Source of the DNA: an uncultured Clostridia bacterium
GTDB lineage: Bacteria; Bacillota; Clostridia; Lachnospirales; CAMZNU01
Assembly: GCA_947313885.1 (NCBI GenBank)
Contig: CAMZNU010000008.1
Coordinates: forward strand, 1-64,000
DNA: 64,000 nt
Reading direction: 5' to 3'
The notes below the pieces were generated by a model. The model made no database searches, was not told the DNA's origin, and saw only the letters and a list, made by a program, of their open reading frames with translations. This document shows positions 11,929 through 17,219 of the stretch, piece by piece. Position 1 is the stretch's first letter; each line of letters starts with the position of its first letter. Position numbers and translations under genes: made by a program.

Positions 11929-13281
11929 CTAATCAGTAATTATATCTCCGACTAAATCGAAGTCTAAACCTTCTGTAATTTTAACATTAACGAAATCGCC
12001 ACAAAGTAGTTCATAATCACATTTAAAAAATACTAATCCATCGACGTCAACACAATCTTTAAATGTACGACCACAATAAATATTTTCTTCACCGTCTAGT
12101 TTACCGTCGGTAATAACTTCTAAAGTTTTTCCTATATACTGTGTAGTTTTAGATGCTGAAATATTTTTTTGTATGTCTAAAATGTAGTCTTTACGTTGTT
12201 TTTTTGTTTCTTCATCAACTTGATTATCCATAGTAGCGGATTTAGTGCCATCTTCTTGACAGTATTCAAAAACACCAAGTTTATCAAAACGTACTCCTTC
12301 TACAAAATCGCACAAGTCTTTAAAATGTTCATCAGTTTCATGAGGAAAACCAACCATTAAAGTAGTTCTCAAACAAATATCAGGTATTTTTGATTTTAAT
12401 TTATTAATTTTTTCTAATAATAGTTTACGGCTACTAATACGAGCCATTTTTTTAAGTATGAAATCGTTGCTGTGTTGTATTGGCATATCTACGTAGTTAC
12501 AAATTTTTTCATTACGTGCAATTTCATCGATAAGAGAATCTGTAATTTGTTCAGGGTATAAATACATAAGTCGTATCCAATGAACGCCATCTACTTTACT
12601 AATTTGTTGTAAAAGTTCAACTAATTTAATTTCGCCATAAAGATCCTTACCATAAACAGAAGTATCTTGAGCAACTATAATAAGTTCTTTAACACCTTTA
12701 GAGGTTAAAGTTTTAGTTTCGTCTACAATACTTTCGATAGTACGACTTCTAAAAGCTCCTCTAATACTTGGAATTGTACAATAAGTACATCTATTATCAC
12801 ACCCTTCTGCAATTTTTAAATATGCATAATGACCAGGGGTTGTAAGAATACGTCGATTAAAAAGTTTTTCCGATAACGTTTTAGAACGTTTATTTATAAT
12901 AGAAACTTTTTCACCATCTAAAACTTTTTTAATAACGCTAGCAATTGCATCAAAATCATTAGTACCTACTATTGCATCAATTTCAGGAATTTCTTTTAAA
13001 AGTTCTTCTCTATAACGTTGTGCCATACAACCAGTTACGATAATTCCTTTACAAATATTATTTTCTTTATATTGAGTAATTTGTAAAATATTTTCTATAC
13101 CTTCTTCTGTAGCATCTAATTTAAAACCACATGTATTAATAATAACGATATGTGCATTTTCTTCATCATTAGTAATTGTATAACCTTCATCGTTAATAAT
13201 ACCTAACATTATTTCGCTATCAACAAGATTTTTATCACAGCCAAGTGATACAAATCCAATTTTTATATCTAAATTATTCAT
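11929..13281 (-). CDS. rimO: Ribosomal protein S12 methylthiotransferase RimO
   Basis: Adds a methylthio group to an aspartate of ribosomal protein S12. The 450 residues show three parts: the N-terminal MTTase domain (GCDKNLVDSE; further cysteines in INTCGF and VTGCMAQR for the second cluster), the radical-SAM domain with CDNRCTYC near residue 155, and a C-terminal TRAM domain. The DSE motif and YGEIKLVELL region fit RimO better than MiaB. It overlaps the end of folD by eight bases. Confidence 0.92.
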   Translation of the reverse strand: MNNLDIKIGFVSLGCDKNLVDSEIMLGIINDEGYTITNDEENAHIVIINTCGFKLDATEEGIENILQITQYKENNICKGIIVTGCMAQRYREELLKEIPEIDAIVGTNDFDAIASVIKKVLDGEKVSIINKRSKTLSEKLFNRRILTTPGHYAYLKIAEGCDNRCTYCTIPSIRGAFRSRTIESIVDETKTLTSKGVKELIIVAQDTSVYGKDLYGEIKLVELLQQISKVDGVHWIRLMYLYPEQITDSLIDEIARNEKICNYVDMPIQHSNDFILKKMARISSRKLLLEKINKLKSKIPDICLRTTLMVGFPHETDEHFKDLCDFVEGVRFDKLGVFEYCQEDGTKSATMDNQVDEETKKQRKDYILDIQKNISASKTTQYIGKTLEVITDGKLDGEENIYCGRTFKDCVDVDGLVFFKCDYELLCGDFVNVKITEGLDFDLVGDIITD

Positions 13282-14119
13282 TTGTTTCTCCTTTTATGAC
13301 ACAACTAGTTAAAACATTTTTCATAAGCATAGTGACAGTTATGCAACCTACGCCTTTAGGAACTGAGGTGATGTGAGAACATTTATCTTTAACGTTAATA
13401 AAATCAACATCACCACATACTTTATTAAATTTATCACGGTTAATACCAACGTCTATAACAATAGCATCGTCTTTAACCATATCCTTAGTTACAAAATTCG
13501 GTATACCTACAGCACTAATTAATATGTCACCTTTATTAGTAGTATTCCCAATATCAATAGTTTTAGAGTGACAAATAGTAATGGTCGCATTACGTTCTAA
13601 AAGCATTGACGTAAGTGGTTTACCAATAATATTGCTACGCCCTATTAATACACAGTGCTTGCCGTCTAAAGGGATTTCATAATGGTCTAAAATACTTAAA
13701 ATACTTTTAGGGGTACACGGTGTAAATTTATTTTCATTCATTAATAGTAGTCCAATGTTTTCGGGGTGTATACAATCTACGTCCTTTTCTTTGGCAATTG
13801 CTAAAGAAATATTAGAATAATTAATATGATTAGGAAGAGGCATTTCTATTAAAATACTAGTAATGTTATTATCATTATTTAAAATTTGAATATTTTTAAT
13901 TAAGTCTTCTTCTAAAATATTAACAGGGTATATATAAGTTATAACATCAACTCCTAATTTTTTTGCTGTTTTTTTAATACTGTTTAAATAAACTTTACCA
14001 GCATTATCGTCGCCAACAACGACAACAGCTAAAGTTGGGACAAAATTTAATTTTTTAAAGTCTAGAGATAAAGTATTTAAAATAGAATCTCTAACTTTTA
14101 CGCAATCCATAGTGTTCAT
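13274..14119 (-). CDS. folD: FolD-family methylenetetrahydrofolate dehydrogenase with altered folate-site residues
   Basis: A protein of 281 residues with the FolD fold. The NADP-binding motif GRSNIIGKPLTSMLL near residue 160 and KDVDCIHPENIG are present. Several family residues are changed. The YVxxK motif reads YLNSI, so the catalytic lysine position is isoleucine. QLPLP reads EMPLP. The C-terminal PGGVGP reads PKGVGC. In characterised FolD the lysine is required for cyclohydrolase activity, so this protein may be a dehydrogenase only or have another role. It lies between ftsK and rimO in the same operon, with a good ribosome site. The reading frame is intact. Confidence 0.85.
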   Translation of the reverse strand: MNTMDCVKVRDSILNTLSLDFKKLNFVPTLAVVVVGDDNAGKVYLNSIKKTAKKLGVDVITYIYPVNILEEDLIKNIQILNNDNNITSILIEMPLPNHINYSNISLAIAKEKDVDCIHPENIGLLLMNENKFTPCTPKSILSILDHYEIPLDGKHCVLIGRSNIIGKPLTSMLLERNATITICHSKTIDIGNTTNKGDILISAVGIPNFVTKDMVKDDAIVIDVGINRDKFNKVCGDVDFINVKDKCSHITSVPKGVGCITVTMLMKNVLTSCVIKGETNE

Positions 14120-14134
14120 TTTATGACTCCTTAC

Positions 14135-17100
14135 TTAGAAATTACTACGTGTATTATTCCATTCTTCTTTTGTAATTAAAACTTTTCTAGCACGGCTACC
14201 TTCTGACAATCCGATATGCCCACAATTTTCTAAAGAATCTATAATTCTTGATGCTCTATTGTATCCAATTCTAAACTTTGATTGCAACATAGAAGCGGAT
14301 GCTTTTTGTTTTTCAATTATAAAATCAACGACGTCAGCAAAAAGTTCATCATATTCATCATTAGAACCATTTTGCGATGTTGCATTAGCACTAATGATTT
14401 TAGTGAGTAAATCGACATCAATAGGGGTTGTAGTAAATTGTTTTAAATGTTCAACAATAGCTTCAACTTCAGAGTCAGAAACAAAAGCTCCTTGAATTCT
14501 TAAGGGTTCATTATTACCAACAGGACTAAACAGCATATCTCCACGTCCAAGAAGTTTTTCTGCACCAGTAGTATCTAAAACGGTTCTAGAATCCGTACCC
14601 GACGATACAGAAAATGCCATTCTAGAAGGTATGTTAGCTTTTATTAAACCAGTTATAACATCTACAGATGGTCGTTGCGTTGCAATAATTAAATGAATAC
14701 CAGCGGCACGGGCAAGTTGTGCAAGTCTACAAATAGACCCCTCAACTTCTTTAGCACCAGTCATCATAAGGTCTGCAAGTTCATCAATAATAATAACTAT
14801 TTGAGGCATTGCTTCATAATTTTTTTGTTTAGCAATTTTGTTGTATCCTTCTAAATTACGAGTTGCATTATCCGCAAATAATTTATAACGTCTATCCATT
14901 TCAGCTACAGCCCAAAGAAGAGCCGATGAAGCTTTTTTAGGATCTGTAACTACAGGAATTAATAAGTGTGGTATACCGTTATAAATACTAAGTTCAACTA
15001 CTTTAGGATCGATCATAAGTAATTTAACGTCGTCAGGATGTGCTTTATAAATAATGCTAGTAATTAAAGTATTAATACAAACACTTTTACCAGAACCTGT
15101 AGCACCTGCTATTAACATATGTGGCATTTTAGCGATATCGGTAATAATAACTTTACCGCCGATGTCTTTACCGAGTCCAAAAGCTAAGTTTGATTCAAAG
15201 TCGTTAAACTCATCTGTTTCTAGAACTTCACGTAAAAAAACATCTTCTGTAATACGGTTAGGAACTTCAATACCAACTACAGCTTTGTTAGGGACAGGTG
15301 CTTGAATTCTAACTCCCGATGTAGCTAAATTTAAAGCAAGATCATCAGATAAGTTTGCTATTTTACTAACCTTAACTCCAGGAGCTGGTTGAACTTCATA
15401 CCTCGTAACCGTAGGACCTTTATCAACATTAACAACTTTAGCTTTAACGCCAAAGCTTAATAAAGTTTCTTCTAATTTAATAATATTATTATGAATTTCT
15501 GTTTCTGATGAATCAGAAGCAACATTTAAGTTTTTACTCAACAACTCAATAGATGGAAATACGTAGTCATCTTTTTCAATGACTTCATCTGTAGATATTA
15601 CAATTTCTTCTTGTGAATCATTAATTGTATTTTCTGTAATTAAATTATTGTGTTCATTTGAAATAGTATTACTATTAAATTTAGGAATGTTATCAAAGTC
15701 TATGTCTTCATAATTTAATTCATCATCAATATTGATATTTTCAAAATGTGAATCATCATCTGTCAAAAAATTTGGTGATGATAAATTGTCATTATTAGTA
15801 CTATTGTTATCATCAAACAACCCTGTAATAATATTTCCATTTAAAACTATATTTTTAGAATTGATATTAAAATCATCATCATTAGAAATTAAGGTTTTCG
15901 CTATATCACCTATATCAATATTAGAATCAATATCAAAGTCGGTATTAGAATCAATATCAAAGTCGGTATTAGAATCAATATCAAAGTCGGTATTAGAGTC
16001 AATATCAAAGTCGGTATTAGAGTCAATATCAAAGTCAATATTAGAGTCAATATCAAAGTCGGTATTAGAATCAATATTATTTTCAGTATTATCATCATTA
16101 CTAGTAGTCATATTAATATTATCAAAAAGTCTTTTTGAGTGAATTTCTTTAGTATCTTCATAAAATTCTTTAATGAGTTTGTGCCTTGAGTCTAATGAAC
16201 TATTTGCTTCTGTGTCATTATGTAAGTGTGTAATAACTTCATTATGGGTAGAATCATTTGAATTGTTGTCTATTGTATGTGAATAGAAATTTGCCGTATC
16301 CTTTGATTCGTCAATATTTTTATTAAATAAGGAAACTGGGTTTTCCACAGGTGGACGATGAGAAATAGTAATAGGTTTTACTTTTTTTCTTAATACTATT
16401 TTTTTCTTTTTAATGGCTTTAGATTTTTTTCGTAAATTGTCTGACACGGGAGTAGCAGTTTCTTTTTTTATAACAGTTTTTTTCGCTACACCTTTATTGC
16501 TTTTATTAAAATAGTGTGAATTAACACTATTACGTTGTAGTTTATTTTGATATTCCAAATCAGAATGCTCTAAATTTTTTGAAGTTTCAGCTTGTTCGTT
16601 TTTATTTTCAGAGTATTTATTTAACATAGTCATTAAAGAATCATAAGTATTAATAGTTAAAACATAAAATAACTTCATTATAGAGTACTCAGTAAGTAAA
16701 GTAATAAGTATTAAAAACGACGTAAAGATAAATAAATATGACCCAACAGTACCAAGTATAGTTAAAACAAGTTGACCAAATAAAGCACCGATCAATCCAC
16801 CATTTAAAATAAAATCTGTTTGACCAGAATAATTTTTTGAAAAATATTCAACCATAGTGTAATCATCTAAAGCGTTATTGGAAATTAAATGTAATAAGAA
16901 TAAAGAGTTTAAAAAAATAAAACTAGATAAAATTAATTTTTTATAGCTAAAAGAATTTTGTAAAAAAGTATAAATTGTGAAAGTGAAAATAAATATAGGT
17001 ACGAAAAATTTACCAAATCCAAAAAGTCCATTTAAGGAATTAGTTAAAAATAGAGTTAAAAAACCACTATTTTCCCCCGAGGAGAGTAGTAAATAAAAAA

Positions 17101-17200
17101 TAAAAAAACTAAATATAATTGATGAAAAAGAAATAATTTCATTTTTTTTATTGTTGCTGGCAGAAGCTTTTTTTTTGCCAGCCTTTTTTTTGTACTTCAT
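14135..17200 (-). CDS. ftsK: DNA translocase FtsK/SpoIIIE
   Basis: A 1021-residue chromosome pump. The start is the ATG at 17200, preceded by AAAGGAG; an ATG at 17218 lacks one. The order is a basic N-terminus, four membrane segments (roughly residues 25-180), a long low-complexity linker (200-560), the translocase with Walker [12 protein letters not shown] near residue 685 and [11 protein letters not shown], and a C-terminal gamma winged helix ([10 protein letters not shown]) that reads chromosome polarity sequences. The linker holds a run of near-identical eight-residue repeats (listed separately). It ends 16 bases before folD. Confidence 0.95.
15910..16080 (-). repeat. 24-base tandem repeats in the ftsK linker
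   Basis: About seven copies of a 24-base unit encode DIDSNTDF with T/I variation. The copies are almost identical in DNA, which favours slippage and copy-number change without a frame shift. They make a highly acidic, disordered linker. Confidence 0.9.
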
Positions 17201-17219
17201 AAGTTCTCCTTTCTGCATG

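Follow-up and report, generated by a model that had tools for sequence, protein, structure and literature searches.

A FolD without the cyclohydrolase lysine and glutamine, predicted to be dehydrogenase-only, in a Clostridia genome whose FTCD_C protein lies in a histidine-degradation operon

The window, a stretch of 64,000 nucleotides from an uncultured Clostridia bacterium (assembly GCA_947313885.1), contains a folD gene placed between ftsK/spoIIIE and rimO, all three on the reverse strand (Table 1). The folD reading frame is intact, open and of full length. Both FolD family domains exceed their curated cut-offs in the organism's own genome (G000), PF02882 with 206 bits and PF00763 with an E-value of 2.7e-26, and the FolDs of the PDB are matched at values down to 1e-67 with nearly the whole length covered. 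The neighbouring ftsK/spoIIIE gene carries, in the region of the FtsK linker (15871-16124 of the window, reverse strand), a tandem 12/24-nt repeat encoding DFDIDSNT.

Table 1. Features of the folD locus (positions in the window; residues compared with E. coli FolD by alignment)
Feature	Position	Strand	Description
folD	13274..14119	-	281 aa; full-length methylenetetrahydrofolate dehydrogenase(/cyclohydrolase) family protein; sole PF02882/PF00763 match in the genome
Tyr44	13988..13990	-	E. coli Tyr50 (tyrosine of YxxxK), conserved
Ile48 (codon ATT)	13976..13978	-	Position of the catalytic lysine, E. coli K54
Glu92	13844..13846	-	Position of E. coli Gln98
Asp115-Cys116	13772..13777	-	E. coli Asp121-Gly122; Asp kept
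PKGVGC (residues 254-259)	13343..13360	-	Replaces PGGVGP
rimO	11929..13281	-	Overlaps the end of folD by 8 nt
ftsK/spoIIIE	14135..17218	-	Immediately upstream of folD

About 120 FolDs were aligned to locate the catalytic residues, with E. coli K-12 FolD (taken from NC_000913) as the reference, and all motifs of the protein match up with the E. coli enzyme without gaps. The four motifs described as altered in the first-pass annotation are indeed so: YVASK has become YLNSI, with I48 at K54; QLPLP has become EMPLP, with E92 at Q98; DVDG has become DVDC, with D121 kept as D115 and G122 replaced by C116; and PGGVGP has become PKGVGC. The NADP loop GRSNIIGKP is retained, as had also been stated, together with the substrate residues Tyr50 (Y44) and Asp121 (D115) and with CHSKT. 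The last two changes, although real, have little weight and were discarded as signs of lost activity: DVDC is common among the aligned FolDs bearing K54 and Q98, and PVPKGVG or PVPRGVG is found there too, which leaves K54I and Q98E as the only diagnostic changes. The two lysines following YLNSI fall at the ordinary positions 55-56, where most normal FolDs likewise have K or R (YVxxKKKA), and with no indel in the alignment there is no support for one of them standing in for K54, an alternative that the first-pass annotation had itself raised. Nor can Ile48 be put down to one sequencing error, since the frame is open and at least two bases must differ to turn AAA or AAG into ATT. An AlphaFold model made from four sequences (mean pLDDT 75, TM about 0.5 to FolD structures) was set aside, its side chains being unplaceable.

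The consequences of such replacements have been studied in E. coli FolD, where the dehydrogenase falls to about 19% in K54N and about 8% in Q98H, the cyclohydrolase being undetectable in the former and about 1% in the latter, and where deletion of K54-R55 also makes the cyclohydrolase undetectable (PMC5688156); the earlier claim that the lysine and the glutamine are needed for the cyclohydrolase reaction agrees with the published mutants. As regards human Lys56, a binding and not a catalytic role has been judged for the dehydrogenase step, the lysine as cyclohydrolase base was not settled by MTHFD2 modelling (PMC9173628), and another paper gives this residue a part in both reactions (PMC3368264). 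The FolD described here, with Ile48 for Lys54 and Glu92 for Gln98, does not have the residues that define a bifunctional dehydrogenase-cyclohydrolase. Since both are lost, the mutants lead us to predict that the protein acts as a methylene-THF dehydrogenase using NADP(H) and that its cyclohydrolase activity is slight or absent, which corresponds to the dehydrogenase-only enzyme originally suggested; the other suggestion, a different substrate, is unsupported because the protein retains Tyr50, Asp121 and the NADP loop. Given that K54N and Q98H also reduced the dehydrogenase of E. coli, compensating changes must be assumed. Moreover, inhibition by carolacton is not seen with the K54N enzyme (PMC5688156), and natural FolDs without K54 (here at 13976-13978) may be insensitive too.

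A look through the genome for fchA, fhs and a second folD, as had been proposed, gave one FTCD_C/FchA-family gene, one fhs and, besides the single folD, no further copy in an assembly of 1.55 Mb and 49 contigs that is 95.8% complete. ThyA, PurN, PurH and Fmt are also encoded. The customary enzymes for drawing one-carbon units from serine and glycine were not found: for SHMT nothing in this genome exceeded the cut-off (best match 23.8 bits), and for GcvT no match was obtained; the borderline SHMT matches were not accepted as glyA, being sub-threshold, and the one that was translated (L215) reads like a class V aminotransferase. At this level of completeness and fragmentation, a gap in the assembly could account for the apparent lack of SHMT, GcvT or a true FchA. 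The third formyltransferase of the genome (L214, 1489-2322) has ArnA/sugar-type formyltransferases as its closest models, with scores below their cut-offs.

The FTCD_C/FchA-family protein (G000:C1:10219-10752, 225 bits) is encoded within a complete histidine-degradation operon, HutU-FtcD-HutI-FTCD_C-HutH, all on one strand. The FTCD_C tree separates a folD-linked clade from a hut clade (split support 100/99), and the protein falls among the hut cyclodeaminases and outside the FchA clade that is linked to FolD in relatives; it has hut-type residues at most of the positions that separate the two clades. The NCBIfam FchA model NF045657 was rejected as a discriminator, as it scores both clades alike: its cut-off is 275 bits, and neither the protein, at 190.8, nor the folD-linked proteins tested, at 174-208, reach it. 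The nearest solved structure is 7vg4, annotated as a cyclohydrolase. The first-pass annotation had expected that a separate cyclohydrolase of the FchA type, or another one-carbon route, would be needed, and a protein of that family does exist, but with its place in a full hut operon and in the hut clade, to call its gene fchA would be too simple. A hut operon in which glutamate formimidoyltransferase and the FTCD_C cyclodeaminase are free-standing proteins is a known arrangement; the difference is that most relatives with it keep K54 and Q98 in their FolD, whereas the present genome, G044, G054 and G065 do not. In G044, a single-contig genome whose FolD is without K54, there are two hut-clade FTCD_C genes (L158, L159), one of which may act as a cyclohydrolase.

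Among genomes of the same order, FTCD_C was found in 60 of 196, the present one included. The K54 position was scored in 103 FolDs whose genomes had been classed as having FTCD_C or not, with K54 lost in 27 and kept in 29 of the 56 FolDs from FTCD_C genomes, and kept in all 47 (lost in 0/47) from genomes without FTCD_C; the sample comprised the highest- and lowest-scoring FolDs together with the FTCD_C genomes, so it is non-random and its related rows are not independent. An independent-pairs test found just 1-2 pairs and cannot therefore reach significance, the independent events being few. The usual K54-lost FolDs of the order are of the YERGA...FRPLP type and mostly lie beside an FchA of the separate clade; those accompanied by hut-clade FTCD_C only are from the present genome, G044, G054 and G065. 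One relative, G128, has two FolDs (L089, L187), one keeping K54 and lying beside rimO, the other of the other type and beside FchA. A further divergent FolD (L134 in G038, at about 569-1321), with QLPLSCNQ and a PNKDKNISAGIG loop, has both K54 and Q98 and comes from a genome without an FTCD_C match.

Regarding its origin, the gene is probably the cell's original folD, in which K54 and Q98 were lost in place, since it retains the ftsK-folD-rimO position of ordinary FolDs. Many K54-keeping folD genes adjoin rimO, and the full order is also present in several relatives, while ftsK or rimO neighbours were found at 0 of the 25 K54-lost loci L046-L070. The mean identity of the protein is 41.7% to K54-bearing FolDs and 34.5% to the rest, and free FolD trees place it, on a long branch and with an odd composition, apart from the K54-lost clade. 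Against the argument from synteny, a single clade of all K54-lost FolDs, this one included, is not rejected by the AU test (p 0.58-0.63). One of the relatives sharing the order, G032 (L041), has K54 kept and Q98E, as well as a stand-alone hut-clade FTCD_C with no hut gene alongside, and possibly represents an intermediate state.

Taken together, gene content suggests a route in which FolD works most likely in the reductive direction, converting methenyl-THF and NADPH into methylene-THF for dTMP synthesis, a direction made likely by the presence of ThyA where SHMT and GcvT were not found; if these absences are real, the reduction of methenyl-THF by FolD is the only recognised route to methylene-THF. 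The hut operon, whose genes are all present, would supply methenyl-THF from histidine by way of formimino-THF, formate being perhaps a second source, and the 10-formyl-THF for PurN, PurH and Fmt would come from formate through Fhs, also encoded. The least certain step is the joining of both pools, for which the hut FTCD_C, like its homologue FchA, probably also interconverts methenyl-THF and 10-formyl-THF. We consider this whole reading, a dehydrogenase-only reductive FolD fed with histidine-derived methenyl-THF and a hut FTCD_C that is probably also a cyclohydrolase, to be reasonably probable.

A tentative alternative, to which a smaller though appreciable probability is given, is that there is no enzymatic methenyl-THF cyclohydrolase at all: FTCD_C would be a cyclodeaminase only, as its clade, operon and residues would allow, and the one-carbon pool would be split, with 10-formyl-THF from formate and Fhs going to purines and fMet, and methenyl-THF from histidine going through FolD to dTMP, both linked at most by spontaneous hydrolysis. 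The set of genes present (Fhs, ThyA, PurN, PurH, Fmt) and not found (SHMT, GcvT) suits this alternative, and E. coli without cyclohydrolase survives, albeit poorly, as the step can be spontaneous (PMC5688156). However, dTMP would then hang on histidine, the stand-alone gene of G032 suggests that a role outside histidine degradation is possible in the hut clade, and bifunctionality should come easily, because FTCD_C and FchA are one family, with 7vg4, annotated as a cyclohydrolase, as the nearest solved structure.

The two remaining explanations concern FolD itself. That it is still bifunctional, with Glu92, an ordered water or a nearby lysine giving a weak but sufficient cyclohydrolase, is improbable: the unsettled role of the lysine in the MTHFD2 modelling (PMC9173628) and the two lysines directly after YLNSI would favour it, but the K54N and K54-R55 deletion enzymes had no detectable cyclohydrolase (PMC5688156) and those lysines are ordinary residues of an ungapped alignment. 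Very improbable is a FolD in decay or repurposed, with another substrate or no activity, as might be read from its long branch, odd composition and several changed motifs; it is a single-copy gene with an intact frame between ftsK and rimO, its Tyr50, Asp121 and NADP loop are kept, and the genome encodes ThyA, for which no other source of methylene-THF was found.

Compared with known systems, the protein resembles the bifunctional FolD of the E. coli type (PF00763 and PF02882) as a full-length homologue with about 37-48% identity to K54-keeping FolDs, with the same Tyr50, Asp121 and NADP loop and with a locus shared by many relatives, and differs from it in the Ile and Glu at K54 and Q98, the two residues without which the E. 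coli cyclohydrolase is wholly or almost wholly lost. A monofunctional, dehydrogenase-only FolD with separate FchA and Fhs has reportedly been described in C. perfringens (Aluri et al. 2016, cited in PMC7219735), and the NADP-dependent dehydrogenase of Peptostreptococcus productus, the subject of a title cited in PMC5688156, is reportedly another monofunctional case. The C. perfringens type has in common with the present genome a FolD without the cyclohydrolase residues, a protein of the FTCD_C/FchA family and Fhs; here, by contrast, the locus is ancestral, the residues are I and E, and the sole FTCD_C is of the hut clade and in a hut operon. The division of labour between a dehydrogenase-only FolD and a separate cyclohydrolase is thus not new in itself; the new aspects are the hut-linked candidate partner and the probable loss in place.

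The case would be a natural example of a bifunctional enzyme that has seemingly lost one of its activities in place, with G032 as a possible intermediate. It also implies that the annotation 'bifunctional FolD' is unsafe in genomes with an FTCD_C gene and that such a gene need not be FchA, and it makes testable whether the cyclodeaminase of the histidine pathway can replace the cyclohydrolase.
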